Below are positions 37,214-52,156 of a stretch of DNA of 64,000 nucleotides, piece after piece. Both the position numbers and the translations under genes were made by a program. The notes under the pieces are model-generated. The model saw only the letters and a list, made by a program, of their open reading frames with translations, was not told the origin of the DNA and made no database searches. The DNA comes from Noviherbaspirillum massiliense JC206. GTDB taxonomy: Bacteria; Pseudomonadota; Gammaproteobacteria; Burkholderiales; Burkholderiaceae_D. The DNA lies in NCBI RefSeq assembly GCF_000312045.1, contig NZ_HE978634.1:2468380-2532379 (forward strand). Reading direction: 5' to 3'. Numbering within the stretch: the stretch's first letter is position 1; every line of letters starts with the position of its first letter.

Positions 37214-38419
37214 ATGTCACATTCCTACTTTTGCCCCTGCCCGCGCGGTCTTGAAGCGGCGCTTGCCGAAGAGCTCGGCGAAATTGCGCAGCACGGCAAA
37301 ACCCTGCAAGTTCACAACCAGGTCCCGGGCGGAGTCCACTGCTCCGGCACGCTGGCAGATGCCTACCGCATCAACCTGCATTCCCGCATCGCTTCGCGCG
37401 TCCTGCTGCGCATTGCCCAAGGTAGCTATGTCAATGAGAACGACATCTACGACCTCGCGCTGGCCCAGCCCTGGGAAGAATGGTTCGATGTCAACCACAC
37501 CATCCGCGTCGATCTCACCGCGATCAAGTCGCCGCTGAAAAGCCTGGAATTCACCACGCTCAAGATCAAGGACGGCGTGTGCGACCGCTTCCGCGACCTG
37601 TATTCGAAGCGCCCTTCGGTCAACACCCGCACGCCGGACATGCGCATCTTCGGCTTCCTCGATGCGCGCAACTTTACGCTGTATCTCGATACTTCCGGCG
37701 AGGCGCTGTTCAAACGCGGCTGGCGCCAGGAAACCGGCGATGCGCCGCTGCGCGAAAACCTGGCAGCCGGCCTGCTGCGCGTCGCCGGCTGGAAGCCGGG
37801 CACCGTCCTGTTCGATCCGATGTGCGGCTCGGGCACCATCCTGATCGAAGCCGCGCAAATCCTTGCCGGCATCCCGCCGGGCGCGCGCCGTCGCTTCGCC
37901 TTCGAAAAATTCCTCGCGTTCAAGCAGGATGAATGGCTGGCGATCAAGGGGAGCTTCAAGCCCAATCCCCTGCCAACCGAGCCGAGCATTTTCGGCAGCG
38001 ACATTTCGGGCGACATGATCGCCATGACGCGCAACAATCTGCTCAATGCCGGCATCCAGTTCGAGGTGCCACTGAAACAGATCGAAGCGCAGGAAGTGAA
38101 GCCGCCGACCGACGCTCCGGGCATCATGCTCACCAATCCGCCCTATGGCGAACGAATCGGCGTGCGCGGCGACCGCAGCCAGCCCGCGGATGAAATGGCC
38201 ACTGCCTTCTACAGCGCCTTCGGCACTACCCTGAAGCAGCGCTTCGCCGGTTGGAAAGTGTTCCTGTTCACCGCCGACCTCAGCCTGCCCAAGCTTGTGC
38301 GATTGAAGGAATCGCGCAAGACGCCCTTCTTCAATGGCGCGCTGGAATGCCGGCTGTTCCGCTTCGATATGGTGGCGGGATTCAACCGGCGCGAGGAAGC
38401 CAGGCCGAAGCAGGTTTAA
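37214..38419 (+). CDS. THUMP-domain class I SAM-dependent RNA methyltransferase (RlmL N-terminal-type)
   Basis: A 401-residue enzyme that probably methylates a guanine N2 in 23S rRNA, as the homologous half of E. coli RlmL does. The N-terminal part SYFCPCPRGLEAALAEELGEI leads into a THUMP domain (about 45-165). The methyltransferase domain follows, with the SAM loop LFDPMCGSGTILIEAAQ and catalytic IMLTNPPYGERIG. It lacks the second (RlmK) half of the fused E. coli protein, which is normal outside gamma-proteobacteria. Confidence 0.9.
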   Translation: MSHSYFCPCPRGLEAALAEELGEIAQHGKTLQVHNQVPGGVHCSGTLADAYRINLHSRIASRVLLRIAQGSYVNENDIYDLALAQPWEEWFDVNHTIRVDLTAIKSPLKSLEFTTLKIKDGVCDRFRDLYSKRPSVNTRTPDMRIFGFLDARNFTLYLDTSGEALFKRGWRQETGDAPLRENLAAGLLRVAGWKPGTVLFDPMCGSGTILIEAAQILAGIPPGARRRFAFEKFLAFKQDEWLAIKGSFKPNPLPTEPSIFGSDISGDMIAMTRNNLLNAGIQFEVPLKQIEAQEVKPPTDAPGIMLTNPPYGERIGVRGDRSQPADEMATAFYSAFGTTLKQRFAGWKVFLFTADLSLPKLVRLKESRKTPFFNGALECRLFRFDMVAGFNRREEARPKQV

Positions 38420-38456
38420 AGCGGATTTACCGGAATTGCGGGAAAGAGGATGCGGG

Positions 38457-38993
38457 CTATTTGACGCGCCGCTTTTCCAGCTTGCGCGCAAGCGTGCGGC
38501 GATGCATCCCGAGGCGGCGCGCCGTTTCCGAAATATTGAAGCCCGTCTCCCTCAGCACTTCATGGATGCGCTCCCATTCGAGCGTCTTGATCGAGGTCGC
38601 GCGGTTGGTAAGTTCGATATCGGTATTTCCGGCGACATGGCCGAAGGCTGCCTCGATGTCATCGGTGTTGGAAGGCTTGGCCAGATACTGGCAGGCGCCC
38701 AGCTTGATCGCCTCGACCGCCGTATTGATGCTGGCGAAGCCGGTAAGAACTACGATCAGCATGTCCGGGGCATGCTGGTGCAGCATTTGCACACAAGCCA
38801 GGCCGGACGTGTTGTCGCTGAGCTTGAGGTCGACCACAGCATGGGTCGGCGCATGCTCCGTAAGTAACGCGGCCACCTCGTCGATATTCTCCGCCAGCAG
38901 CACCTCATAGCCGCGTCGCTCGAATGAGCGGCCGAGCGTGCGGGCGAAAGCCGCATCGTCTTCGACGATCAGCAGCAGGCGGTCAGAGCCCAT
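38457..38993 (-). CDS. regA: Redox response regulator RegA/PrrA/RoxR type
   Basis: A 178-residue response regulator. The receiver has EDD near residues 11-13, phospho-acceptor Asp at about 55 (HAVVDLKLSD) and the Lys in YLAKPSN. A short linker leads to a Fis-type helix-turn-helix, WERIHEVLRETGFNISETARRLGMHRRTLARKLEKR, which is almost invariant in RegA-like proteins. In relatives it activates respiratory, photosynthetic and carbon/nitrogen-fixation genes at low redox potential. It overlaps regB by 11 bp and lies downstream of the cyo genes, which are a likely target. Confidence 0.92.
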   Translation of the reverse strand: MGSDRLLLIVEDDAAFARTLGRSFERRGYEVLLAENIDEVAALLTEHAPTHAVVDLKLSDNTSGLACVQMLHQHAPDMLIVVLTGFASINTAVEAIKLGACQYLAKPSNTDDIEAAFGHVAGNTDIELTNRATSIKTLEWERIHEVLRETGFNISETARRLGMHRRTLARKLEKRRVK

Positions 38994-40332
38994 GTCCTTC
39001 TTCCCTTTCGAGCGCGATCGCTGACAGGGGCAGGGTAAGCTGGACAGCCGCCCCGCCCTCCGGGCGATTGCTCGCAGTTACGGTACCGCCGAGCTTGCGC
39101 GCGACATTCACTACCAGGAACAATCCCAGTCCGGCCCCGGGACGCCTCTTGGTCGACTGATAGGGTTTGCCGAAATGCTCGAGCATCGACGGCAGGAAAC
39201 CGGGGCCGGCGTCCGTCACCAGCAGTTTCAGCGAACCGTCCTCGCGGATCGCTTCGAGCTTCACCCATTGGGGCGAGGCTTCGAGCGCATTGTCGAGCAC
39301 ATTGAAAATCATTTGCTTCAGGGCAGAGTCGAATGCGACCGGAAGATCGTCCTGAATCCGGTTCTCGTAGACGAATGAAGGAATCGGCCTGCTGGATCGC
39401 CATTCTTCGGCCAGATCATTCAGAAACGTGACGATCGTGGTCTTCACCGAAGATTCGCCGCGCGCTTCACCCGCCGACAGAAGAATACCGCTGACAATGG
39501 TCTTGCAGCGCTGCAGTTGTGCCTGCATCTCGGTGATTTCTTCCTGCAGCTCGGGATTCCTGCTGAATTCCGGCATGCGTCGCCAGTCACCCAGAATGAC
39601 GGAAAGCGTCGCCAGCGGAGTGCCGAGTTCGTGCGCGGCACCCGAGGCCAGCAGGCCCATACGCACGATATGTTCTTCCTCGGCCGCGCGCTGCCGAAGG
39701 TAAGCGAGCTGGGCGTCGCCCGCGCGCAGGTTGCGGGTGATGCGGGTGATGAAGAAAACCAGCAAGGAAGCATTGAGCACGAAGCAAATCAGCAAGCCCT
39801 GCACATACAGGTCGGAAAAGCTGTGCCCTTGTTCGTGGGGCAATACCAGGGGCATGGAAAACTGCGACAGGACGGCCAGGCAGAGGGCCGTAATCAGGAC
39901 TATCGTCCATGTGGACCAAGGTTTGAGCAGAACGGCGCTGAGAATGACCTGCAGCAGGTACAGGAATGCGAATGGATTGGCCGCGCCACCGCTGAAATAC
40001 AGCTGTGCCGTAAGGCTGCCCACATCGACCAGCAGCGCGGAAAACAGGCGCGTGTTGGAAACGGTGCTCTGCTCGTGCCAGCGCAGATGGCTGCTGATGT
40101 TGTAGGCGATGAGGCATGCCAGCACGGCAAGCATTTGCGGCAGCGGCAGGCGGATGTCAAACACCAGGACGACGATGGCAATCGTCGTAACTTGCCCGAA
40201 GACGGCAAGCCAGCGCAGTTGGATCAACTGCAGCATGTTGTTGTGGCCGGCAGTGTTTTCAATCTTCTCGGTCGCGGGCCATTGCTCTTTGACGCCTTCC
40301 CGATTCGCGGCAGTTTCCATTTTGCTTGGCAT
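38983..40332 (-). CDS. regB: Redox sensor histidine kinase RegB/PrrB type
   Basis: A 449-residue membrane kinase. Six hydrophobic segments occupy about 40-200 and include the family's redox/quinone box GGAANPF at 115-121. The H-box is ASGAAHELGTPLATLSV, with phosphorylated His at about 234. Cys 276, in LQRCKTIV, occupies the place of the redox-reactive cysteine described for Rhodobacter RegB. N- and G-boxes (NVLDNALEA, VTDAGPGFLP, GLGLFLVV) complete the ATPase. It should sense quinone/electron flow and phosphorylate RegA. Located 42 bp after the SURF1 gene, suggesting co-transcription with the oxidase. Confidence 0.92.
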   Translation of the reverse strand: MPSKMETAANREGVKEQWPATEKIENTAGHNNMLQLIQLRWLAVFGQVTTIAIVVLVFDIRLPLPQMLAVLACLIAYNISSHLRWHEQSTVSNTRLFSALLVDVGSLTAQLYFSGGAANPFAFLYLLQVILSAVLLKPWSTWTIVLITALCLAVLSQFSMPLVLPHEQGHSFSDLYVQGLLICFVLNASLLVFFITRITRNLRAGDAQLAYLRQRAAEEEHIVRMGLLASGAAHELGTPLATLSVILGDWRRMPEFSRNPELQEEITEMQAQLQRCKTIVSGILLSAGEARGESSVKTTIVTFLNDLAEEWRSSRPIPSFVYENRIQDDLPVAFDSALKQMIFNVLDNALEASPQWVKLEAIREDGSLKLLVTDAGPGFLPSMLEHFGKPYQSTKRRPGAGLGLFLVVNVARKLGGTVTASNRPEGGAAVQLTLPLSAIALEREEGHGL

Positions 40333-40374
40333 CGTTACTTTCCGGTTCGACAGGTTCAGTACCGGTGCACCGTG

Positions 40375-41199
40375 TCATTGCCGCAGCCTGCGCTCCTCGC
40401 GCGCGATCCAAAGGCCTGCACCGGCCACCATCAAGGCGAGAGCATACCAAGTAAGCGCATAGACCAAGTGACTGTTGTGAAAGGAGATGACGGTCAGGCC
40501 ACTGATCGGATAGTCGGGTGCGCCTCCCGACTTGCCGGCCGCAGGCGCCTTGGCATCTGCATCGACGAAGTACGGCGCGACGCGGGACAGGCCACGGGCC
40601 GCCGCAATCGCCTGGACATCGCGGGAATACCACCGGTTGGCAGCAGGGTCATTGTGGTGGAGAAAGGCGCCGCCGGGCTCGCTCATGCGCACCAGCCCGG
40701 TCACGACGGACTCGGACTGTCCGGGGCCTCGCAGATTGCCGGTTGCGCTGCCGGGGTCATCGCGGACTTGATCGGACGCACCGGAAGGAACGAAGCCACG
40801 GTTGACCAGCACGATGCTGTCATCGGCCATGCGAAGCGGCGTCAGCAGCCAGTAGCCGCCGCCATATTCGGTGGAGGCCTGAACCCGGGTCGTGAGTGGA
40901 TAAAGGAAGGTGCCGGCTACCCGTACGTGGCGGTATTCGTCGGCTTGGGCATTGATTCGCGACCAGTCGGCGGGACCCGGAGCGGGCACGGGCGCGGCAT
41001 GCACCCGCTGGTTGACGCGTTCAATGAGTGCGAGTTTCCATTGGAGACGATAGAGCTGCCAGGTGCCAAGAGCGACAAAACCCGCAAACGCCAGCGCCAG
41101 GCAGACCGCCAGCGCGACCAGCCTGGACAAGGAGCGCGCGCGCGGCTCGGCTTCCTGCATGGAGGTCGAACCGCTGTGCTGCTCCTGCCGGTCCGTCAT
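40375..41199 (-). CDS. SURF1 family oxidase assembly protein
   Basis: A 274-residue inner-membrane protein with one membrane helix near each end (ALAVCLALAFAGFVALGTWQL and LVYALTWYALALMVAGAGLWIA) and a large periplasmic domain. The family motifs GTWQLYRLQWKLALIERV and SIVLVNRGFVP are visible. SURF1 proteins help insert haem into subunit I of haem-copper oxidases. Its ATG overlaps the cyoD stop (ATGA), so it is likely the assembly factor for this quinol oxidase (a Surf1q-type arrangement) rather than for the caa3 enzyme 16 kb away. Confidence 0.9.
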   Translation of the reverse strand: MTDRQEQHSGSTSMQEAEPRARSLSRLVALAVCLALAFAGFVALGTWQLYRLQWKLALIERVNQRVHAAPVPAPGPADWSRINAQADEYRHVRVAGTFLYPLTTRVQASTEYGGGYWLLTPLRMADDSIVLVNRGFVPSGASDQVRDDPGSATGNLRGPGQSESVVTGLVRMSEPGGAFLHHNDPAANRWYSRDVQAIAAARGLSRVAPYFVDADAKAPAAGKSGGAPDYPISGLTVISFHNSHLVYALTWYALALMVAGAGLWIAREERRLRQ

Positions 41200-41606
41200 T
41201 GCATGTTGTGCATCTGGTGCATGGTTTCGGGCATCATGCCCGGCATCATGTTGTGATTGAGATGGTACATGACCCATAAGGAGCCACTCAGTACGATAAC
41301 CACCAGCACGACTGTAAAGATGAGGGCAAGCATGTTCCAGCCGCCTTCGGATTTCGTGTTCATATGCAGGAAATAGACCATGTGAACAACGATTTGCACG
41401 GCGGCAAAGCCAAGAATGACCATTGCCGTGGTGCTGGACTTGTCGAACACCTTGCCCATCACCAGCCAGAACGGAATGGCGGTCAGGATTACCGACAGGA
41501 TGAAACCGATGACATAGCTTTTCAGGCTGCCATGGTCGGCATGATCCTCGTGCTCATGATGGCCGTGATCGGCGCTATGGTTCGAATGGGTGTGATGTTC
41601 GCTCAT
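41196..41606 (-). CDS. cyoD: Cytochrome o ubiquinol oxidase subunit IV
   Basis: A 136-residue membrane protein with three hydrophobic helices: SYVIGFILSVILTAIPFWLVM, AMVILGFAAVQIVVHMVYFLHM and LALIFTVVLVVIVLSGSLWVM. These match CyoD. The N-terminus is exceptionally His-rich (about ten His in the first 32 residues), and the C-terminus is Met/His-rich (NHNMMPGMMPETMHQMHNM). Both suggest metal contact, perhaps with copper. The ATG at 41606 overlaps cyoC by 4 bp. Confidence 0.93.
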   Translation of the reverse strand: MSEHHTHSNHSADHGHHEHEDHADHGSLKSYVIGFILSVILTAIPFWLVMGKVFDKSSTTAMVILGFAAVQIVVHMVYFLHMNTKSEGGWNMLALIFTVVLVVIVLSGSLWVMYHLNHNMMPGMMPETMHQMHNMQ

Positions 41607-42238
41607 GGCAAGACTCCCATCAGATAAACAAAGGTGAAGACGCCGATCCAGATGACGTCCAGGAAGTGCCAGAACATGGAAAGGCACATCAGGCGACGGC
41701 GGTTTTCGGGAATCAATCCGTGCCGCTTGAGCTGGAACATCAGCGTGACCAGCCAGATGATGCCGAAGCTCACGTGCAGGCCGTGCGTGCCGACCAGGGC
41801 AAAGAAGGATGTCATGAAGGCGCTGCGCTGCGGGCCGGCACCTTCATGGATCAGGTGCATGAACTCGGTCAATTCGAGGGCGATGAAGCCCGCGCCGAGC
41901 AGGCCGGTGATGCCCAGCCACAGCAAGGTAGTGCCGAGCTTCTTGCGCTGCGACTCCAGCATCGCAAAGCCGTAGGTGATCGACGACAGCAGCAGCAGCG
42001 CCGTGTTGACTGCCACCAGCGGCAGGTCGAACAGTTCGGCGCCCGAGGGGCCGCCTGCGTAGTTGCGTCCCAGGACCGCATAGGCGGCGAACAGGCATGC
42101 AAATACCAGGCAGTCGCTCATCAGGTAGAGCCAGAAACCGAGCAGGGTACTGTTTTCCGGATGGTGCTCGCGCACGTAGTAGCGCTCGCTCGATGCAGCG
42201 CTCAGTGCGTTAACAGAGGTTGCAGTGATGTCAGACAT
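41603..42238 (-). CDS. cyoC: Cytochrome o ubiquinol oxidase subunit III
   Basis: A 211-residue membrane subunit with five hydrophobic helices. Landmarks include [25 protein letters not shown], the glutamate-bearing [42 protein letters not shown] and [20 protein letters not shown]. Start ATG at 42238 overlaps the cyoB 3' end by 8 bp. Complete and of normal length. Confidence 0.96.
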
Positions 42239-44234
42239 AGCTTTCCAGTAATCGGGTGCGATCCTTCTCGGTTCGGACAACTTGCTCGGCCGGGATGTAA
42301 TAGTCGCGTTTGTAATTAAAGGTGTGGATGACGACGGCGGCCATCATCGCAGCAAAGCCGAGGCCGGCCACCAGCCACATCTGCCAGATCAGGGCGAATC
42401 CGACGACCGCGCTCAGTGCGGCGATCACGAATCCGGCAGCCGTATTCTTCGGCATGTGGATCGGAACGAAGCCCTGCAGCGGCCGGCTGTAGCCGTTCTT
42501 CTTCATGTCGGTCCAGGCGTCGTTGTCATAGACGCGCGGCGTGAACGCGAAGTTGTAGTCCGGCGGCGGCGAGGACGTCGACCATTCCAGCGTACGGCCG
42601 TCCCACGGATCGCCGGTCACGTCGCGCAGTTCGTTGCGGCGCTTGAAGCTGACATAGAACTGGATCAGCATCGAGGCAATACCCAGCGCGATCAGTACCG
42701 CGCCGAACGCAGCGATCTGGAACCAGATCTGCAGCGAAGTATCCTCGAAGTGGCTCATGCGGCGCGTCACGCCCATCAGGCCCAGCACATACAACGGCAT
42801 GAAGGCGAGATAGAAGCCGATGACCCAGAACCAGAACGAGCACTTGCCCCAGAAGACGTCGAGCTTGTAACCGAAGGCTTTCGGGAACCAGTAGTTGATC
42901 GCGGCAAACACGCCGAACACCACGCCGCCGATGATCACGTTATGGAAGTGCGCGATCAGGAACAGGCTGTTGTGCAGCACGAAGTCAGCCGGCGGTACCG
43001 CCAGCAGCACTCCCGTCATGCCGCCGATCACGAAGGTGATCATGAAGGCAACGGTCCACATCATCGGCAGCTCGAAGCGGATACGGCCGCGATACATGGT
43101 GAACAGCCAGTTGAAGATCTTGGCGCCGGTCGGAATCGAGATGATCATCGTCGTGATGCCAAAGAACGAGTTCACGCTCGCGCCGGACCCCATCGTAAAG
43201 AAGTGGTGCAGCCAGACCAGGTAGGACAGGACCATGATCACCGCGGTCGCGTACACCATCGAGGTGTAGCCGAACAGGCGCTTGCCGCAGAAGGTCGCAA
43301 CCACTTCGGAGAAGACGCCGAACACCGGCAGGATCAGGATGTACACCTCAGGGTGGCCCCAGATCCAGATCAGGTTCACGTACAGCATCGGGTTGCCGCC
43401 CAGGTCGTTGGTGAAGAAGTTCGAGCCGAAGACGCGGTCCATGGACAGCATCGCCAGCACGGCGGTCAGCACCGGGAAGGTCACGACGATCAGGATGTTG
43501 GTGCACAGGGCGGTCCAGGTGAACACCGGCATCTTCATCAGGCTCATGCCGGGTGCACGCATCTTGACGATGGTCGCAATCAGGTTCACCCCGGACAGCA
43601 AGGTTCCCACCCCGGCAATCTGCAAGGACCAGATGTAGTAATCGACCCCCACATCCGGACTGAGCTGCAATCCCGACAAGGGCGCGTAGGCGAGCCAGCC
43701 GGTACGCGCATATTCGCCGACGAACAGCGAGACCATCGTCAGCGCCGCGCCACAGGCGGTCATCCAGAAGCTGAAATTGTTCAGGAACGGGAAAGACACG
43801 TCGCGCGCGCCGATCTGCAGCGGCACGACATAGTTCATCAGGCCGGTCACGAACGGCATCGCGACGAAGAAGATCATGATCACGCCGTGTGCCGTGAAGA
43901 TCTGGTCGTAGTGGTGCGGCGGCAGGTAGCCGGTGGCGTCGCCAAAGGCAACCGCCTGCTGGGCACGCATCATGAGCGCGTCGGCAAAGCCGCGCAGCAG
44001 CATCACCAGGCCCAGTATCATGTACATGATGCCGATTTTTTTGTGGTCGATGCTGGTGATCCAGTCACGCCACAGGGGGCCCCAGAGGCGGAAACGCGTC
44101 AGCGCGGCGAGGACCACCACGCCGCCGATCGCCACCATGGCAAAAGTCGCAATCAGGATGGGCTCATGATATGGAATGGCATCCCAGCCCAGCCGGCCGA
44201 AGATGAGCTTCGTCAGGTTAATTTGGTCTAGCAT
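42231..44234 (-). CDS. cyoB: Cytochrome o ubiquinol oxidase subunit I
   Basis: A 667-residue catalytic subunit housing the low-spin haem and the haem-copper centre that reduces O2 to water while pumping protons. It shows [22 protein letters not shown], with the proton-channel Glu and the Cu-ligand His/cross-linked Tyr. [10 protein letters not shown] supplies two further Cu-ligand histidines, and [12 protein letters not shown] supplies haem ligands. The long N- and C-terminal extensions typical of CyoB (extra membrane segments) are present. It follows cyoA by 2 bp. Confidence 0.98.
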
Positions 44235-44236
44235 CG

Positions 44237-45250
44237 TTACTCCTGATGAATGTGGGAGTGCGAGGGGGAGGCTTCGGCGCTGCTTTGCGCAACAGGGCGC
44301 ACCGGCTTCTCTTCCTCCGTGGCTTTACGCGCGGCATCGGCCTTGATGCGCTCACTGTCGGCAGCCATCATGTCGCTCATGCATACCGTTCCGGGCGCCA
44401 CGCAGCGGTTGACGATGGCGTCGTACAGATGCGGCGTCACCTTTCCGAAATGCCGCACCGGCTCGCGTTCACTGGGCTTTTCCAATTGCAGGTAGTCGTC
44501 ACGCTCGAGCGCGCCGCCTCCCGCCTTGGTTTTTTGCACCCAGCCTTCAAAGTCCGCAGCGCTCACGCCGTGGTACTTGAAGCGCATGTGGGAGAATCCC
44601 GCGCCGCTGTAGTTGGCCGAAAAGCCTTCGTAGACACCGGGCTTGTTCATGACGGCGTTCAGCGTGGTATCCATACCCGGCATGGCGTAGATCTGCCCGG
44701 CAAGCGCAGGAATGTAGAAAGAGTTCATCGCATTGGATGCGGTAATCTTGAATCGAACAGGCACATCCACCGGCGTGACGAGTTCATTGACCGTCGCAAT
44801 ACCCTGTTCCGGATAAATGAACAGCCATTTCCAGTCGAGGGCGACGACCTGGACAACCAGCGGCTCGGTGCCGGCAGGAATTTCGCGCTTGGCATCAAGA
44901 CGTTGCAGGGGCCGGTACGGGTCCAGCTGGTGAGTGCTGATCCAGGTCAGCAAGCCCAGGGCGATGATGATCAACAGCGGAGCGCCCCAGATCACCAGTT
45001 CGAGCTTGGTCGAATGGTCCCAGTCGGGATCGTATTTGGCAGAGGTATTGCTTTTCCTGTAGCGCCATGCAAAGAGGATGGTCAGGGCGATCACGGGAAC
45101 GATGATCAGGAGCATCAACAGCGTGGAAATAACAATGAGATGCCCCTGCTGGGCGGCAATGTCGCCAGAGGGATTCATTACCACCGTATCACAACCGGCA
45201 AGCAAGATGACTGGCAACAACAGCCCGCTACGAATTATCAAGGAAATCAT
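44237..45250 (-). CDS. cyoA: Cytochrome o ubiquinol oxidase subunit II
   Basis: A 337-residue lipoprotein subunit that forms part of the quinol-oxidising site. The signal sequence ends in LLAGC, with lipid-modified Cys at about 20. Two membrane helices follow ([22 protein letters not shown] and [20 protein letters not shown]), then a cupredoxin domain. It lacks the CuA cysteine pair, as expected for quinol rather than cytochrome c oxidases. First gene of the cyo run; the promoter lies in the 136 bp shared with the divergent transporter gene. Confidence 0.96.
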
Positions 45251-45386
45251 GCGGTAGAGTTACAGAGATTGGCGAACATGGTACTGTACTGCTAACGACG
45301 CGCATTTCCGATTGGACATTTTGTCCCACCCTGGAACAAGGCCGGAACAGGTCAGACGCGTCGGGCAAAATGACTGAGGAGACGAC

Positions 45387-46736
45387 ATGGCAAGCATGAG
45401 CACTTCCGCCACCCGCATTTCTTCCGCTTCGCAGCCGCACCCGGACAGCAGCGGCGCGCGACACATCAATGCCCGCGACGGGCAGATTGCACCCGGCGAA
45501 ATCGCCATCGGCGTCGTCATAGGCCGCGCATCCGAATACTTCGATTTCTTCGTCTATGCGATCGCCTCGGTGCTGGTGTTTCCCTCCGTATTCTTCCCGT
45601 TCGAGGGAAGGCTGGAGGGCACCCTGTACGCCTTCGCGATTTTCGCCCTTGCCTTCGTGGCGCGGCCCTTCGGAACGGTTGCCTTCATGGCGATCCAGCG
45701 CCGGTTCAGCCGGGAAGTGAAGCTCACGCTCGCGCTCTTTGTCCTCGGCGCATCGACTGCCGGCATGGCCTTCCTGCCAACCTACGCGCACCTGGGTACG
45801 GCCTCGATCGTCCTGCTGGCGCTGCTGCGCATCGGCCAGGGCATCGCGCTCGGCGGTTCATGGGACGGGCTGCCCTCGCTGCTGGCGCTCAGCGCGCCGC
45901 AACACCGTCGCGGCTGGTATGCAATGCTGGGTCAGCTCGGTGCACCGGTGGGCTTCATCGTTGCCGCCGGACTGTTCTCCTACCTGCTGTCCACGCTGTC
46001 CTCCCTGGACTTTATCGAGTGGGGCTGGCGTTATCCGTTCTACGTGGCATTTGCCATCAACGTGGTGGCACTGTTCGCCCGCCTGCGCCTGGTATCCACC
46101 TCCGAATACTCGCGCCTGCTTGACGAACGCGAGCTGGAGCCGACCAATGTCATTGAAATGACCCGTTCGCAAGGACGCAATCTGATCATCGGTGCCCTCG
46201 CGGCGCTGGCGAGTTACGCGCTGTTCCATCTCGTCACGGTGTTTCCGCTGTCGTGGATCGCCTTGTATTCCTTGCGCTCGATCAGCGACTTCCTGATGGT
46301 CCAGATGGCGGGCGCGGCACTGGCGATCCTCGGCATCATCGCCTCCGGCGTGATCGCCGACCGCTTCGGCCGGCGCACGACACTAGGCAGCCTCGCATTC
46401 CTGATCGCCCTGTTCAGCGCATCCGTTCCGACCCTGCTGAACAGCGGCGAGCTGGGGCAGGACTTGTTCATCCTGCTCGGTTTCGGCCTGCTCGGCTTGT
46501 CATACGGCCAGGCAGCCGGCGCGGTTACCGCCAACTTCCCGGCAAAGTACCGCTACACCGGCGCAGCCCTCACCTCCGATCTGGCCTGGCTCGCCGGCGC
46601 AGGCTTCGCTCCGCTGGTGGCGCTTGGCCTGTCCGCGCATTTCGGTCTGGCCTACGTCAGCCTGTACCTGCTGTCAGGCGCCGCGGGTTCGCTGGCTGCG
46701 CTCAGCCTCAACCGCGCCCTCGAAATCCGGGACTGA
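45387..46736 (+). CDS. MFS transporter, metabolite:H+ symporter-like
   Basis: A 449-residue major-facilitator protein with about 12 membrane helices. The pattern GEIAIGVVIGRASEYFDFFVYAIASVLVFPSVFFP, ARPFGTVAFMAIQRRFSR and LRIGQGIALGGSWDGLPSLLAL is that of the MHS subfamily (ProP/KgtP/ShiA relatives). These import carboxylates, osmolytes or shikimate. The substrate is not evident. It is divergent from cyoA. The region's regulator is unknown. Confidence 0.85.
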   Translation: MASMSTSATRISSASQPHPDSSGARHINARDGQIAPGEIAIGVVIGRASEYFDFFVYAIASVLVFPSVFFPFEGRLEGTLYAFAIFALAFVARPFGTVAFMAIQRRFSREVKLTLALFVLGASTAGMAFLPTYAHLGTASIVLLALLRIGQGIALGGSWDGLPSLLALSAPQHRRGWYAMLGQLGAPVGFIVAAGLFSYLLSTLSSLDFIEWGWRYPFYVAFAINVVALFARLRLVSTSEYSRLLDERELEPTNVIEMTRSQGRNLIIGALAALASYALFHLVTVFPLSWIALYSLRSISDFLMVQMAGAALAILGIIASGVIADRFGRRTTLGSLAFLIALFSASVPTLLNSGELGQDLFILLGFGLLGLSYGQAAGAVTANFPAKYRYTGAALTSDLAWLAGAGFAPLVALGLSAHFGLAYVSLYLLSGAAGSLAALSLNRALEIRD

Positions 46737-46770
46737 CCACGCTGCGCCGCCGGGCGCAGTAGCCAGAGAA

Positions 46771-48186
46771 TCAACTGCCGCTCGGAGCGCGTTCATGCAA
46801 CGCGCTCCTGTCACTTCTCCCGGCGTACATCGATTGTTCCGATATCGGGGCGGGCCCTTGGGATCGCAAGGTATTGCGGACAAAACCGATATGCCCGCGC
46901 AGACCGTAAAACAGGTCGCCGAAGGAAGCGGGCACCACGATCTTGCTGACCGCATTCTCGATCTCATCAAGGTGTTGCAAGAGCTCTTCGCGCCGCTTCG
47001 GGTCCGCGCCGGGCTTGAATGCATCGCGTTCAAGGTCCAGCAAGGCCCGGTACCAGCGGTAGATGCGTGACTCCATGCGCCAGCGATAGATGGCCGGTGC
47101 GAGTCTCAGCGCGGGAATCAGCAACAAGGCGAACGGCACGAAGAAGGCCACGATGCGCGTGATGATGCTGGCAACCCCGTAGGGGAACATGCGATAAAAG
47201 AAACTCTTGCCCGAGGTGTAGTAGCGGGTCGCATCCGGGCTGATCCGGAATTCATGTTCCTGCGGCGCCGGGAACTCGCCGCGCTTCTTGAAGAGGCTGG
47301 CACCGCCGTGTACTTCGCGCGCCGCTTCAAGCAGCAGGTCCGACAGCGCCGGGTGCAGGCTGTCCCGGGCAATGATTTCGACGGTCGGGCCGATGAGAGC
47401 AGTGTCTTCGGCAGGAATGTCCTTGCCAAAATCCAGCGACCCCCTGGGCAGGCTCAGCTTGTTCAAATAGTTGATGCGTCGGGTATAGCCATCGGCTTGC
47501 TCAAAGTTAAACAGGTGAATGTCCGGCGTATGCAGCAGTTCGCGCATCATGTCGGTGGCCGTGGAATCCCCCATGACGAAAATCGCATCCACCCGGTTCT
47601 CGCGCAAGGCGCGCACCAGGTCGCCGGGAACGGTGCTGACGAAGGCCGTGTCACCACCGGGTTCGATGCCATTCGCCTTGAGCAGCGTGAGCGCCAGCGA
47701 ATGCGCCCCGCTGCCTTCCGGCCCGATGTCGAGGCGCAGTCCCCTGAAATCGGAAAGCAAGGTCTTTGGGCTGCCGCGATAAAAGATCATGAGCGGCTGG
47801 TAGGAAATGCTCCCGAGCGACACCAGATTCCCCTTGTCCGCCTTGCCAACTTCGCCACCCAGCACAAAGCCGACATCGACCGCCACTTTAGGATCGGACA
47901 ACTTCTTGAGGTTGTCCCTGGACCCTTCCGAAGGAAGTATCTTCACCGTGACGCCTTGCCGCGCCAGGATCTGCCTGTACTTCTCGGCATTTCGCTGGAA
48001 TACGCTGCCATTGGGCCCGCTGGCTATGGTGATGGTGTTGGGGGCGCCGAAATTCGCGAATGCGAGGATCGCCATGCCCGCGACGACGCCGAACACCAGG
48101 ATGGCACTGACGGACATCACCTGCCCTTTTCCAAACAGGCCGTTGAGCTTCGCGAGCATTCTGGACAAATAGATTTTGGGACTCAC
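46771..48186 (-). CDS. TAXI family TRAP-type solute-binding protein, membrane-anchored
   Basis: A 471-residue protein with an N-terminal membrane segment (VSAILVFGVVAGMAILAFANFGA). A TAXI-type binding domain follows, with TITIASGPNGSVFQRNAEKYRQIL, GPEGSGAHSLALTLLKANGI and VMGDSTATDMMRELL. A second hydrophobic segment (VASIITRIVAFFVPFALLLIPALRL) and a cytoplasmic C-terminal tail come last. TAXI proteins normally feed TRAP permeases, but no permease gene is adjacent. The frame opens at a GTG (48195), but a GTG at 48186 is better spaced from GGAGG. Confidence 0.85.
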   Translation of the reverse strand: MSPKIYLSRMLAKLNGLFGKGQVMSVSAILVFGVVAGMAILAFANFGAPNTITIASGPNGSVFQRNAEKYRQILARQGVTVKILPSEGSRDNLKKLSDPKVAVDVGFVLGGEVGKADKGNLVSLGSISYQPLMIFYRGSPKTLLSDFRGLRLDIGPEGSGAHSLALTLLKANGIEPGGDTAFVSTVPGDLVRALRENRVDAIFVMGDSTATDMMRELLHTPDIHLFNFEQADGYTRRINYLNKLSLPRGSLDFGKDIPAEDTALIGPTVEIIARDSLHPALSDLLLEAAREVHGGASLFKKRGEFPAPQEHEFRISPDATRYYTSGKSFFYRMFPYGVASIITRIVAFFVPFALLLIPALRLAPAIYRWRMESRIYRWYRALLDLERDAFKPGADPKRREELLQHLDEIENAVSKIVVPASFGDLFYGLRGHIGFVRNTLRSQGPAPISEQSMYAGRSDRSALHERAPSGS

Positions 48187-48432
48187 TGAAGTCACCCTCC
48201 GAGTGTGTTGCTGCTTCGGGAAAGCGCAGATGATATGCGGTTTTCACGCGGTGTACATGCCAGAATGCGGGTTGTCGTCATTGAAAGGTGCCCTTCCGTA
48301 GGGACGTTTTGAAATGCCGGCTGTTTCAGTTTAATAGGGTGGCGGAGTTTAATCGGATGGAAAAGCGAATCTGAAACAGGTTGGGGATTTTTTGTCGGCT
48401 CGTGTGGCGAGAGGTGTTTACTTAACGCCGCC
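48187..48432. other. Spacer between TAXI gene and cassette remnant
   Basis: About 245 bp without a gene. It carries a 9-bp inverted repeat, CTGTTTCAG (48321-48329) and CTGAAACAG (48371-48379), separated by 41 bp. Near 48420-48426 lies ACTTAAC, a possible half attC core on the edge of the foreign patch. The TAXI gene's promoter should also lie here. Confidence 0.4.
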
Positions 48433-48801
48433 CTAACCGGCCTGTAGCACTTGCTGCGAAGCGGCATGTCCTCGCTCTCTGGGGCAGTCCATACAGGAAC
48501 TTCTGGAGTTTAGGAACTCCTTTTCCAACACGCCGACAACAAACTCTAAGAAGGCGTAAACCTCATTCCAATTGGCTCCGAAGAAGTAGGTCCGAATCTC
48601 TCCGAGGATTCTTTCGCTCCGATTCAAGTATTGCCATCCCGGCCTTTGGTCGATTGGCTTCTTAAAGTAACGAAACCAGAGGTGTGCGCTGAAATTGTCG
48701 ACGGTGGGCAGATTGCCCTAACGACCGTGGAGAAATCCGTCCGACTCCCAGACTGACAGCTGCAGCGCATTCCAGAGGGAGTTGCGGAGCTCATCGCTCA
48801 T
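48433..48801 (-). pseudogene. Broken AbiJ-like (NTD4-type) abortive-infection gene fragment
   Basis: Reading from an ATG at 48801 gives MSDELRNSLWNALQLSVWES, an in-frame TAG after about 27 codons, then, in the same frame, LWFRYFKKPIDQRPGWQYL and GEIRTYFFGANWNEVYAFLEFV before a stop at 48433. These segments resemble the N-terminal domain of AbiJ-type proteins (NTD4, from memory of family members), found in phage-defence abortive-infection proteins. The expected continuation is missing, so the gene is both interrupted and truncated. It may have been a cassette in the adjoining attC array. Confidence 0.65.
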
Positions 48802-48818
48802 CCCATCTGACTAAATGG

Positions 48819-48855
48819 TTTAGCGCACTGACTTTAGGCCCTTGCGTGCGCTAAA
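48819..48855. repeat. Perfect 10-bp inverted repeat
   Basis: TTTAGCGCAC (48819-48828) and GTGCGCTAAA (48846-48855) flank a 17-bp loop. It lies between the AbiJ-like fragment and the first attC site, within the foreign patch. It could be a hairpin terminator or a leftover recombination structure; no U-tract is present. Confidence 0.55.
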
Positions 48856-48872
48856 TGACTTCATATCTGTAG

Positions 48873-48928
48873 ACCTAACTTAAAAACATCCGGTACCGAA
48901 GGCGTCCGTGTTCATTGCCAAGTTAGGC
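48873..48928 (-). repeat. attC-like integron recombination site 1
   Basis: The 56-bp segment is bounded by ACCTAAC (48873-48879) and GTTAGGC (48922-48928), exact fits to the RYYYAAC and GTTRRRY core sites of attC elements. The interior is imperfectly palindromic (AACTT.../...AAGTT, then CCGG-containing arms), as expected for a folded single-strand attC. It stands 18 bp after the stop of the cassette gene at 48947-49324, the usual place for an attC. The call is from core sites and context, not an alignment model. Confidence 0.7.
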
Positions 48929-48946
48929 TATATCAGGTTCAGAACG

Positions 48947-49324
48947 TCACTGAGCCTTGCCATACGCTTTTAACGACGCATCGCAATGCGACTTCACATC
49001 ATTCCACTTGGCCACAATCGCGTCCACGTCCTTTGCGTTTGTCACCTCTTTCAATACCGCTTCCTGAGCGGCCTTTTGGACGGCAGGCTTTTGAGCCTCG
49101 ACATAGCCGTATGACGTTGCTTTTTGAGCGGCATCCAGATAGACAACGGATTCTGCTTGCGCCTTTTGTGCCGCGGAAGCCGTTCCGGGGCCAAGGCCGT
49201 AGGTGGCATTTTGGTAAGCGCATGAAATCATTTCGCTGGCAAACGCTTCGGCGGTCAATGCATCGCTAGCCATCGCTACCGCTGGCATGGCAACGAGCAG
49301 TGCAAGTGTCTTACGCATAAGCAT
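48947..49324 (-). CDS. Small secreted protein of unknown function (cassette gene B)
   Basis: A 125-residue protein with a clear signal peptide (MLMRKTLALLVAMPAVAMA, cleavage before SDALT). The mature part has two cysteines (ISCAYQN and KSHCDAS) and an Ala/Gln-rich helical middle (AAQKAQAESVVYLDAAQKA). No family recognised. AGGGAG lies six bases before the ATG at 49324 (ATGs at 49327 and 49318 are alternatives). It is flanked by attC-like sites on both sides, so it is a cassette-type gene. Its frame is continuous with the upstream cassette ORF through the attC. Confidence 0.7.
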   Translation of the reverse strand: MLMRKTLALLVAMPAVAMASDALTAEAFASEMISCAYQNATYGLGPGTASAAQKAQAESVVYLDAAQKATSYGYVEAQKPAVQKAAQEAVLKEVTNAKDVDAIVAKWNDVKSHCDASLKAYGKAQ

Positions 49325-49345
49325 CATTTTCTCCCTGTAAGTTGC

Positions 49346-49394
49346 GCCTAACAACTTAAATGACCGGCAGTCCGGGTTCATTGACAAGTTAAGT
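49346..49394 (-). repeat. attC-like integron recombination site 2
   Basis: A 49-bp segment bounded by GCCTAAC (49346-49352) and GTTAAGT (49388-49394), both exact core-site matches. The inner arms pair imperfectly: AACTTAAATGACCGG against CCGGGTTCATTGACAAGTT. It shares the CAATGAAC...CCGGAC-type layout with site 1, which supports common origin. It is slightly shorter than typical attC sites. The site is translated in frame by the ORF that crosses it. Confidence 0.72.
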
Positions 49395-49783
49395 TTCATT
49401 AATACCCGCACTATTGGTGCACTTCTGGAGAGGACGGAAACGCATTCCTGGTAACCGGCAACTAAATATTCGGTAATCTCTGCGGCATGATACTTTGAAT
49501 AAAAGTCTTCTCGCGTTGCTTCAAAATCAAACCAGCCTCCACGGTTGACCTTAAAAAGCCAACTTTCAGCTAATTTTGTTTTAGGCGTATTCAACCAAAA
49601 GCCGGCCACGTCTAATTCATCCAATATTCTTAGCCCAATATCGTCCGAAAAGATAACCTCTGCGCGCTCATTGGTGGTTTTGAGCCATACCTCAATAACT
49701 GTGCCCGCATCATGAGTCCATTGAGCTTCAACTACTTTGACGGAGGTCCCGTTGAACGGAACTTCAATAACCTCGATATCCAT
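49394..49783 (-). CDS. Hypothetical cassette protein A, lacking its own stop codon
   Basis: About 130 residues starting MDIEVIEVPFNGTSVKVVEA. The protein has the aromatic-rich pattern DELDVAGFWLNTP, SWLFKVNRGGWFDFEATREDFYSKY and EYLVAGYQECVSVLS, which looks like small proteins often found in integron cassettes, but I recognise no named family. There is no stop before the attC: the frame continues through it and into cassette gene B, ending at 48947 (278 residues in all). Its DNA is visibly more AT-rich than the surrounding chromosome, a sign of transfer. Confidence 0.65.
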
Positions 49784-50307
49784 AACTCTTTAGTTTCCCC
49801 CAATGGCGGTATGAAACTTAACTGTTACGTTATACGGACACAACCGTCCGCTATACACAAGCATCCGCCCGACATGCACGGAATTCCATACCCTTGAAAG
49901 CAGGGCCACACCTTGAACTTGATAAGGCCGACCACGGATACGGCAAATGCCATTCCGTGAAATACGGCAGTCGGATCCCGTTATCACGTTGGCAATCACC
50001 GCCGTATGCTGTCATGGAATAGTTACAACAGCAACATTAAACCACGTGGGCAATTGCAGCTTTTTCGGCGTCCGGCAGCCGATTGCCGCTTGGTGCGCTC
50101 TACGCCGCGATTCCCATTCGTTTCCGTTTCGGGTCAACCGGGCCTCATGTTAGCGCGGAAGGTTCCCTCGACTAGGAGGTGCACCGGCTGGGCCCTTTCG
50201 TCTACGCGTCCCCTAGGGCAACCAAGCCCGGTTCCCGTCAGCAGCCTGTCAGCGATTGCGCTATTCTTGGTTTTTTACTCAGTTTCAAAAATGACGAGGA
50301 GAAGACC
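49784..50307. other. Intergenic region between cassette remnant and gabD
   Basis: About 520 bp with no supported gene. It contains an imperfect palindrome, TATACGGAC (49831-49839) against GTCCGCTATA (49846-49855), and near 49814-49820 a GTTAAGT core (minus strand) without a recognisable partner core. That could be a decayed attC or an insertion edge. The gabD promoter should lie in the right half, and a GAGGAGAAG ribosome binding site precedes gabD. No integrase gene is present. Confidence 0.5.
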
Positions 50308-51786
50308 ATGCTGCAACAAGTCAAGGGACTGCCCAAACTCAAGGACGAGGCGCTGCTGCGCAACCAGGCTTATCTGAATGGCGCTTGGGTTGGCGGCGCA
50401 TCGACTTTCGATGTGACTAACCCGGCCGACGGCGTGACGATTGCCTCGGTGCCGAACCTTGGCGCCAAGGAGGCACAGGCCGCGATCGAGGCCGCTGCAG
50501 CCGCCTTCCCCGCCTGGTCTTCCAAAACCGCGAAGGAACGCGCCGGCATCATGCGCAAGTGGTTCGACCTGCTGGTCGCGAATGCCGACGATCTGGCCGC
50601 ATTGATGACCGCCGAGCAAGGCAAGCCGCTGGCGGAAGCGAAAGGCGAAGTCGCCTATGGCGCGAGCTTCGTCGAATGGTTCGCAGAAGAAGCGAAGCGG
50701 GTATGCGGCGACGTGATGGCATCCACATGGAGCGACAAGCGCATGGTGGTGCTCAAGCAGCCGATCGGCGTGTGCGCCGCTATTACTCCATGGAACTTCC
50801 CGATCGCGATGATCACGCGCAAGGTCGCGCCCGCGATTGCAGCCGGCTGCACCATCGTGATCAAGCCGGCCGAACAGACGCCCCTGTCCGCGCTGGCCAT
50901 GGCCGAACTCGCACACCGCGCCGGCCTGCCGCCGGGGGTGATGAATATCGTGACGGCCGATGCCCAGCGTTCCATCGAAGTCGGCAAGGTGCTGTGCGAG
51001 AGCCCGACCGTACGACATCTGTCCTTCACCGGATCGACCCCGGTCGGCCGCATCCTGATGCAGCAGTGCGCGCCCACCGTCAAGAAACTGTCGCTCGAAC
51101 TCGGCGGCCATGCGCCCTTCATTGTGTTCGAGGATGCCGACATCGATGCCGCGGTGGAAGGCGCGCTGGCCTCGAAATACCGTAATGCCGGCCAGACCTG
51201 CGTGTGCACCAACCGCATATACGTGCATGAATCCATCCATGACAAGTTCGTCGAAAAGCTGGCCGCCGGCGCGGCGAAGATCAAGGTCGGCAACGGCTTC
51301 GAGCAAGGCGTGGTACAGGGGCCGCTGATCGACGACCAGGCGGTCGCGAAGGTGGAGGAGCATGTCGCCGATGCGGTCGCCAAGGGTGCGAAAGTGCTCA
51401 CCGGCGGCAAGGCGCATGCGCTCGGCGGGCATTTCTACGAACCGACGGTGCTGGCCAACGTCACCGGCGACATGAAGGTGATGCGCGAAGAAACCTTCGG
51501 GCCGGTCGCCGCAGTGACCAAGTTCCGTACCGAGGAAGAAGCGATCGCCGCCGCCAACGATACCGAGTTCGGCCTGGCGAGCTATTTCTATTCGCGCGAC
51601 ATCGGCCGCGTCTGGCGGGTTGCGGAAAAGCTGGACTACGGCATGGTCGGCATCAACACCGGGATCATCTCGAACGAAGTCGCCCCCTTTGGCGGCGTCA
51701 AGCAGTCGGGCCTAGGGCGTGAAGGCTCGAAATACGGCATCGAGGAATACCTGGAAATGAAATACCTGTGCATGGGCGGCGTCTGA
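50308..51786 (+). CDS. gabD: NAD(P)-dependent succinate-semialdehyde dehydrogenase
   Basis: A 492-residue cytoplasmic aldehyde dehydrogenase that oxidises succinate semialdehyde to succinate, the last step of GABA breakdown. It has ITPWNFPIAMITRKVAPAIAAGCTIVIKPAEQTPLSA, the Glu motif LELGGHAPFIVF, the catalytic Cys in NAGQTCVCTNRIYV, and the C-terminal NTGIISNEVAPFGGVKQSGLGREGSKYGIEEYLE. These fit GabD closely; glutarate semialdehyde could be an alternative substrate. The frame extends to 50179, but the ATG at 50308 has a strong SD. No GABA transaminase is adjacent. Confidence 0.93.
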   Translation: MLQQVKGLPKLKDEALLRNQAYLNGAWVGGASTFDVTNPADGVTIASVPNLGAKEAQAAIEAAAAAFPAWSSKTAKERAGIMRKWFDLLVANADDLAALMTAEQGKPLAEAKGEVAYGASFVEWFAEEAKRVCGDVMASTWSDKRMVVLKQPIGVCAAITPWNFPIAMITRKVAPAIAAGCTIVIKPAEQTPLSALAMAELAHRAGLPPGVMNIVTADAQRSIEVGKVLCESPTVRHLSFTGSTPVGRILMQQCAPTVKKLSLELGGHAPFIVFEDADIDAAVEGALASKYRNAGQTCVCTNRIYVHESIHDKFVEKLAAGAAKIKVGNGFEQGVVQGPLIDDQAVAKVEEHVADAVAKGAKVLTGGKAHALGGHFYEPTVLANVTGDMKVMREETFGPVAAVTKFRTEEEAIAAANDTEFGLASYFYSRDIGRVWRVAEKLDYGMVGINTGIISNEVAPFGGVKQSGLGREGSKYGIEEYLEMKYLCMGGV

Positions 51787-51806
51787 GCCTTTGCGAAAGC
51801 GCACTG

Positions 51807-51838
51807 CCGGCCGCGGCGATGAAGCGGCGGCCGGTTTT
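51807..51838 (+). terminator. Rho-independent terminator after gabD
   Basis: CCGGCCGC (51807-51814) pairs with GCGGCCGG (51827-51834), followed directly by TTTT. It begins 20 bp past the gabD stop and lies before the small downstream gene, so that gene may depend on its own promoter or on read-through. Confidence 0.75.
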
Positions 51839-51865
51839 CCCGCCGACCGCCGTCACGAGAAGAAC

Positions 51866-52156
51866 ATGAACGAGACGCTTTGCAGGGCTATCCAGGAAAA
51901 ACGGGTGCTCGAACTGCGCTACCACGGCTATTCGCGCATCGTCGAGCCCCATGTCTACGGCCGCAACAAAAAGGAAGAGGAAATGCTGCGCTGCTACCAG
52001 CTTGCCGGTGGCAGCGACAGCGGCGAACGCGCGGGCTGGAAGATGCTCAAGGTGGACGATACCTTCCTCGTGCACCTGACGGAGACGCAATTCCTTCCCC
52101 GTCCCGATTACCAGCCCGAGGACAAGGTGATCGTGGACGTGTTCGCGCGGATATAG
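51866..52156 (+). CDS. Small WYL-like domain protein
   Basis: A 96-residue cytoplasmic protein opening MNETLCRAIQEKRVLELRYHGYSRIVEPHVYG. The pattern of a charged strand, YxG turn and ExHxYG resembles the ligand-binding core of WYL domains, here without the usual helix-turn-helix. WKMLKVDDTFLVHLTETQF and PDYQPEDKVIVDVFARI complete it. Standalone WYL-like proteins of this size are common and uncharacterised. It lies 30 bp short of the convergent FAD/Rieske gene. Confidence 0.7.
   Translation: MNETLCRAIQEKRVLELRYHGYSRIVEPHVYGRNKKEEEMLRCYQLAGGSDSGERAGWKMLKVDDTFLVHLTETQFLPRPDYQPEDKVIVDVFARI

Follow-up and report, generated by a model that had tools for sequence, protein, structure and literature searches.

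Clusters of attC sites lacking an integrase (CALINs) are characterised in passages of PMC9024848 by at least two attC sites, their cassette genes and no integrase nearby. Small arrays without the integrase gene intI are likewise described in passages of PMC12444791 for Xanthomonas, outside the ilvD locus and in genomes that may keep an intI, and the insertion of cassettes at attG sites, outside the integron of genomes that have an integrase, is described in passages of PMC12901181 and PMC12444791, citing Loot et al. 2024. Here we describe a comparable patch of about 1.5 kb in Noviherbaspirillum massiliense JC206, lying within a stretch of 64,000 nucleotides (C1:2468380-2532379, hereafter the window) of the 4.19-Mb, three-contig genome. 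We consider it probable that the patch is a decayed ("headless") chromosomal integron, from which intI is gone and in which an attI-like site, two intact attC sites, half of a third, and three cassettes, one of them broken, remain. It shares with the CALINs of PMC9024848 the features listed above, and differs from the description in those passages by its attI-like site and its third, decayed attC, which make its origin readable; a scan with our attC model alone misses both of these ends. The Xanthomonas arrays belong to another genus, and the passages of PMC12444791 do not mention attI at those CALINs. From the attG insertions, as those passages describe them, the patch differs in its edge, which resembles attI rather than a bare core. 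A literature search on integrons in Noviherbaspirillum returned nothing on the subject, judged by titles and the starts of abstracts.

Below, handles beginning with G denote genomes (G000 being this one), those beginning with L fetched loci, and C1 and C2 contigs of this genome; plain coordinates refer to the window.

Two intact attC sites and a decayed third

To call attC sites we built a covariance model, R1, from ten attC sites beside integrases of this genome (one from L012, four from L009 and five from L010), with the window excluded. R1 finds just two good sites in the 64 kb, attC1 and attC2, the next-best place scoring 12.6 bits, and its maximum over 532 kb of control loci, taken from relatives and other genomes, is 13.6 bits. 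On their plus-strand readings the two sites score 7.7 and 8.1 bits; the cassettes are therefore oriented on the minus strand, as are their open reading frames (ORFs). The elements of the patch, all on the minus strand, are as follows.

49816-49880: attI relic (likelier reading), core GTTAAGT at 49822-49816, from alignment to congener regions upstream of intI
49352-49821: cassette 1, ORF1 and attC1, from the ORF list and a homologue in genome G151 that is followed by its own attC
From 49783 to attC1: ORF1 (P0005), 129 amino acids, an open reading frame
49346-49394: attC1, intact (R1 36.1 bits, E 1.6e-7 over the window; fold z -3.0)
48879-49351: cassette 2, ORF2 and attC2, from the ORF list
48947-49330: ORF2, 127 amino acids, between attC1 and attC2, with a hydrophobic N-terminus that looks signal-peptide-like by eye
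48873-48928: attC2, intact (R1 27.5 bits, E 4.4e-5 over the window)
48426-48878: cassette 3, a broken AbiJ_NTD4-like gene (about 48864-48516) and the decayed attC3, from profile matches of its pieces
48420-48473: attC3, 3' half (loop, L', R') of the long type (46.5 bits with a 54-column profile)

The initial annotation had proposed an integrase-less, CALIN-like cassette remnant from sequence inspection, and its description of the patch holds. The RYYYAAC and GTTRRRY cores stand exactly at the ends of both segments it named (attC2 and attC1), and no other pairs of this kind occur in the window at the scanned spacing with at most two arm mismatches; a covariance scan of both strands, of the sort that it called for and made here with R1, scores both segments on the minus strand; the ORFs that these bracket are small, on the same strand and without a Pfam match at E up to 0.1; the DNA is AT-rich, with the lowest GC content among the window's 1.4-kb steps (0.496 at 48301-49700); no integron integrase match at E up to 1e-5 occurs in the 64 kb; and the two half-cores suggested as edges correspond to the R' end of attC3 (48420) and to the attI-like core (49816, given there as about 49814). 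The remnant itself is supported in amended form, with three cassettes instead of two, an attI-like site kept, and integrases present elsewhere in the genome. By attC calls made with R1, a model trained on this genome's own sites, the patch has two close attC sites whose starts are 473 bp apart, to which the 54-column profile adds the third half-site, and no match to the integron integrase model TIGR02249 at E up to 1e-5 in the window, which is the composition of a CALIN.

The core motifs alone are no proof of attC sites, because Markov resamples of the window average 1.98 core pairs and contain at least two in 170 of 300 cases; we accordingly rejected core-pair counts as evidence, since they are at chance level across 64 kb. 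The RYYYAAC motif is itself rarer than in shuffled sequence (43 occurrences against 75.8), and only the closeness of the pairs is unusual: when a 2-kb stretch of this composition was resampled, two pairs turned up in 40 of 2000 cases. Single-stranded DNA folds of the two sites, on both strands, are modest (z -2.0 to -3.0), and a promoter scan returned fewer sites than in shuffles.

Cassettes 1 and 2 each consist of a gene followed by an attC in the same sense, with the previous R' core as the bound. ORF1 has no stop of its own and reads in frame through attC1 into ORF2, for a total of 278 amino acids. Homologues of ORF1 were found in 14 of 294 family genomes, this one included, and in none of the 14 congeners; a second ORF1-like place in this genome (C2:931557) is 45% similar. 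The homologue in G151, from another genus, matches at 36% over 102 amino acids and sits in a real cassette array (locus L126, attC scores of 48.3, 38.3 and 35.9 bits), the first of these attC sites directly following it; the whole G151 genome has 14 R1 matches at E up to 0.01. This was the one positive among seven homologue loci tested for attC (13 other family genomes have homologues), so most ORF1 homologues are not established as cassette genes. The sole plasmid match of ORF1 (42% over 71% of its length) sits among ordinary genes, and a PDB sequence search returned nothing at E up to 1. ORF2 is present in one of the 294 family genomes, its own; it has no match in the plasmid collection or among PADLOC families, and its best NCBIfam match is at chance level (0.75).

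A third cassette lies beyond attC2, with both its gene and its attC decayed. The minus-strand frame there carries in-frame stops, and its pieces, searched apart against AbiJ_NTD4 (PF18863), gave matches collinear in the profile at E 0.082 and 7.5e-5 (13.8 and 23.7 bits), each below the family's gathering score of 34, the remainder of the profile being unmatched; the second piece also matches PADLOC PDC-S32 (E 4.5e-11). The gene is thus a fragment of such candidate defence proteins, from which it differs by its in-frame stops and partial profile match. Its attC3 was located with a 54-column profile of the 3' half of four long-type attC sites, none from the window, which scores 46.5 bits at exactly 48420-48473 on the minus strand, where the runner-up in the window reaches 3.5 bits and the maximum in a 535-kb control 12.1 bits. 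The half-core at 48420 is read as the R' end of attC3 because of this score. A long-type attC in L104 matches attC3 in a blastn comparison of the patch with 13 loci of this genome (77% over 48 bp, E 0.002). The other half of attC3, R''/L'' (about 48474-48502), has decayed. Three results count against attC3: its fold is no better than shuffles, R1 gives no match there, and a full-length long-type model, R2, matches in part only (12.6 bits). R2 was set aside as a test of attC3 in favour of the 3'-half profile, having given that partial match yet 22.6, 17.5 and 15.3 bits in the loci of three relatives.

An attI-like site at the head of the array

The opposite edge of the patch has its core at 49816-49822 on the minus strand, 32 bases ahead of the ORF1 ATG. 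Upstream of this core on the same strand stand two direct-repeat-like units, GTGCATGTCGG and GTGTATAGCGG, which correspond to GTGCATAACGG, present twice in L150. Nine congener regions upstream of intI were fetched for comparison. When the edge was aligned, right-anchored, to 994 cores, the top scores fell to L150 of G012 (25), L147 of G004 (23) and L152 of G009 (18), the next being 17, and a second scoring against the nine congener regions gave 40, 27 and 24 for the same three, the others scoring at most 18 or having no core. Each of the three matching cores is separated by 176-178 bp from the point where the integrase-model match begins and is divergent from that match; the intI frames concerned have no stops in G012 and G004 and one stop in G009. 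Local alignment of the 75 nt upstream of the edge core was equalled by 0, 3 and 25 of 1000 resamples for G012, G004 and G009, respectively.

An attI relic is the likelier reading of 49816-49880, its resemblance over about 65 bp being strong to two congeners and weaker to the third; this edge would once have worked as the attI site. Because the attI-like site is kept on the side of the patch that faces gabD, a degraded integron is likelier than a set of attC sites of other origin. The edges of L106 and L109, two other cassette sites of this genome that lack intI, resemble the edge of the patch and the same congener attI.

Several readings bearing on this edge were tried and rejected. The attI types found in this genome do not supply its source: five copies of type A were equalled by 249-992 of 1000 resamples (a sixth, with a decayed core, was excluded) and type B by 940 of 1000. 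The pattern CGGAC..GTCC..GTTRRRY, a hairpin plus core, was discarded as proof of a shared edge, its reversed control matching the genome 18 times against 3 for the pattern itself, and a VOC (glyoxalase-type) remnant at 49873-49947 was discarded as a weak match (E 0.025 in a 2.1-kb stretch) that overlaps the attI side.

A second relic in the same genome

Between fliR and flgL, our name for the flagellin-type gene that bounds the spacer, L106:3176-4013 (C1:1810.2-1811.0k) holds an attI and an intI leader with a LexA-like box, and no intI. Its homology to congener attI regions extends through that leader. It also carries a barstar-like cassette gene with an attC (37.0 bits) and an ORF of the contact-dependent inhibition (CDI) immunity type without an attC match after it. 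The fliR-flgL spacer is about 1230 bp here versus about 85-275 bp in eight of the nine congeners, among 14, in which it could be measured from a match listed near each spacer end (the eight are G010, G004, G013, G012, G006, G001, G005 and G009; in G002 the ends are several kb apart). On this layout L106 is, as its sequence appears, a second headless integron relic of the genome.

Integrases and attC sites in the genome and genus

The initial annotation had also called for a genome-wide search for intI and further attC sites, and both exist. Far from the window, two integron integrases score above the TIGR02249 cut-off and have open frames (C2:288667-289608 and C1:1047-1991), a decayed intI with two stops occupies C2:271905-272588, and a fragment lies at C2:860534; the nearest listed TIGR02249 match on the contig of the patch is partial (C1:2797k). 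Four catalytic-region expressions all match IntI-A, and two of the four match IntI-B, which departs from the other two by two residues and one (read from the printed sequence). Over the whole genome R1 gives 23 matches at E up to 10, both window sites included. Of 15 genomes in the genus, 7 have IntI (E up to 1e-60) and 9 have R1 matches (E up to 0.01), this genome being counted in both.

Lone attC sites scoring 24.5-44.5 bits occur in L105 (C1:708k), L107 (1128k), L109 (2980k) and L108 (3090k), preceded by small same-strand genes in L105, L108 and L109 (one of them SMI1/KNR4, in L109) and not in L107. The attI of type A has six copies in this genome (L012:870-941, L013:19455-19520, L009:7708-7765, L014:5362-5420, L104:936-990 and L104:4574-4631), one with a decayed core; three adjoin an intact or decayed intI and three have no listed IntI match nearby. 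L104:1454-7097 (C2:896-902k) contains six R1 attC matches at E up to 0.011 and two attI-A copies, again with no listed IntI nearby, and contig C1 breaks within an integron array, its two ends (L012:1-1000 and L013:19450-20000) bearing attI-A copies that face one another. The blastn comparison of the genome's own loci also brought out a dispersed palindromic repeat, AGTAGGGTGCGCC...GGTGCGCA..GCGCACCCTAC, at the following places.

L105:6886-6956: dispersed repeat
L106:902-967: dispersed repeat
L107:577-647: dispersed repeat
L010:1413-1474: dispersed repeat
L104:10086-10177: dispersed repeat

Insertion site and related loci

The patch is flanked by remnants of two genes.

48285-48365, plus strand: decayed 3' end of a second rlmL, left flank (tblastn 56% over 27 amino acids, E 2.4e-4 in the window)
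50061-50123, plus strand: probable remnant of a WYL-type regulator, right flank (tblastn 62% over 21 amino acids, E 0.015 in the window)

The flank with the WYL remnant has blastn matches to L055 and L049, and a WYL gene precedes gabD in some relatives. Since a decayed rlmL 3' end lies to the left and a WYL remnant to the right, the patch is, to judge by these flanks, an insertion into a decayed rlmL-gabD interval. The gabD loci of nine relatives bear on this interval: rlmL stands ahead of gabD in the ORF lists of eight, and at the ninth (L115, G012) the list has an antisense frame instead, but a blastn comparison of this locus (L048) reveals the 3' end of rlmL. VOC and WYL genes lie between rlmL and gabD in four of the nine (L110, L111, L112 and L116), the RlmL, VOC (glyoxalase-type) and WYL identities being confirmed by Pfam in one example each.

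R1 finds nothing over 12.4 bits in the nine rlmL-gabD loci, and it is on R1 that the absence of attC from them rests, because R2 reaches 22.6 bits in L117; R2 also gives 17.5 bits in L112 and 15.3 in L116, and we take all three for other hairpins. The 22.6-bit place (L117:6357-6436, G016) lies upstream of rlmL, and R1 finds nothing there. The initial annotation had proposed comparing close relatives for an empty site; no site at base-pair level was found in a close relative, blastn of the flanks returning only the gene remnants, and absence of the patch is shown by synteny in the nine more distant relatives.

An intact rlmL is also present in the window (37214-38419), and the 10-kb segment that separates it from the decayed copy (38420-48365) encodes a response regulator, a histidine kinase, SURF1, terminal oxidase subunits, an MFS protein and a TAXI protein, and looks as if it were an island inserted at the rlmL end. 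TAXI-like proteins occur in 38 of 60 relatives, with 47 loci in a second contig set, and named matches include Noviherbaspirillum pedocola (68%) and an Oxalobacteraceae metagenome-assembled genome (74%). No gabD was found next to TAXI in any of the first set's 29 loci, and the second set offers one distant aldehyde-dehydrogenase match only (35%); the TAXI gene is not the ancestral neighbour of the patch in the relatives seen.

Weighing the origin of the patch

Under the headless-integron reading, an integron whose intI was on the plus strand and at the right-hand side would once have lain between rlmL-derived and gabD-side sequence. Its integrase would have captured three circular gene cassettes at attI, each with its own attC and read away from intI on the minus strand, in the order attI, ORF1, attC1, ORF2, attC2, AbiJ-like gene, attC3. 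A deletion would later have removed intI, decay would have overtaken the gene of the third cassette along with the R''/L'' half of attC3, and the ORF1 frame would have come to run through attC1 into ORF2. The former presence of intI at the patch and this order of events are our reconstruction. The other IntI proteins of the genome could still act in trans on the two intact sites, attC1 and attC2, and recombine them.

A number of observations weigh against this reading. Nothing recognisable as intI survives beside the patch (the best match has E 2.2), so that the region gives no match for an intI adjoining attI, as an integron would have. The attI resemblance is moderate, being equalled by 25 of 1000 resamples for one of the three references, G009; of the nine congener regions upstream of intI, six do not match the edge; and homology towards intI (-180 to -50) is not above resamples, ending about 75 nt upstream of the core. 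Because intI has left no residue and the homology ends there, it is from the attI-like site alone that we infer the lost integrase. An Rfam scan of 46000-52000 gave no match, and covariation for the structure imposed on R1 is not above shuffles among its ten training sites (64/500, cells paired), from which it follows that R1 depends for the most part on sequence; structures that were slid score much worse in the same test. The 22.6-bit R2 score in L117 belongs here too, as do R1 matches of 28-42 bits in three congeners for which IntI has no match at E up to 1e-60 (G014, G010 and G003), which may be either further CALINs or false R1 matches.

The main rival is that a trans-acting integrase inserted the cassettes, singly or as a multi-cassette circle, at a non-classical genomic (attG) site where no integron platform ever stood. 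Two open IntI genes in the same genome, the four lone attC sites scattered along C1, and the lack of any intI residue at the patch all fit such an event, which passages of PMC12901181 and PMC12444791 put in print; the 65 bp upstream of the first cassette, however, resemble congener attI, which would not be expected of a bare attG, and the edges of L106 and L109 resemble that same attI. We therefore hold attG insertion to be unlikely. Less probable again, and in our view improbable, is that a chromosomal rearrangement brought in part of an existing array, the attI end with the cassettes nearest to it, out of another integron in the same cell: the neighbourhood has been rearranged, the 10-kb segment parting the intact rlmL from the decayed 3' end, and the genome has several attI copies, but the patch has no cassette gene in common with the 13 loci of this genome compared by blastn, the match being at the level of attC only. 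That the motifs arose by chance and the ORFs are ordinary intergenic open frames is barely credible, even though core pairs alone appear by chance about twice per 64 kb, as this account is already contradicted by the R1 scores with their strand specificity and control, the 46.5-bit profile match of attC3 and the cassette homologue in G151.

Implications

The kind of element described here, a CALIN or degraded integron, is already known, and the useful point is that an attI at the head of a small CALIN tells two origins apart. Whether CALINs arise by integrase loss or by insertion at secondary sites is a practical question. A patch of two attC sites that still carries an attI-like head speaks directly for integrase loss, and in L106 of this genome such a head recurs, there accompanied by an intI leader. 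Scans for whole attC sites can miss both ends of such a relic, namely the attI and a decayed attC beside a broken defence-like gene.

A broader proposal, which we hold with more doubt than belief, is that the small CALINs of the genus may mainly be headless integrons: whole platforms would have settled at several chromosomal loci (rlmL-gabD, fliR-flgL, L109 and others), where intI was lost time and again and attI was left behind with the cassettes nearest to it. If this were true, a search for attI at the heads of CALINs would distinguish, in bacteria at large, arrays left by integrase loss from those made by attG insertion, and lone arrays would go on serving as a reservoir on which the surviving integrases act in trans.

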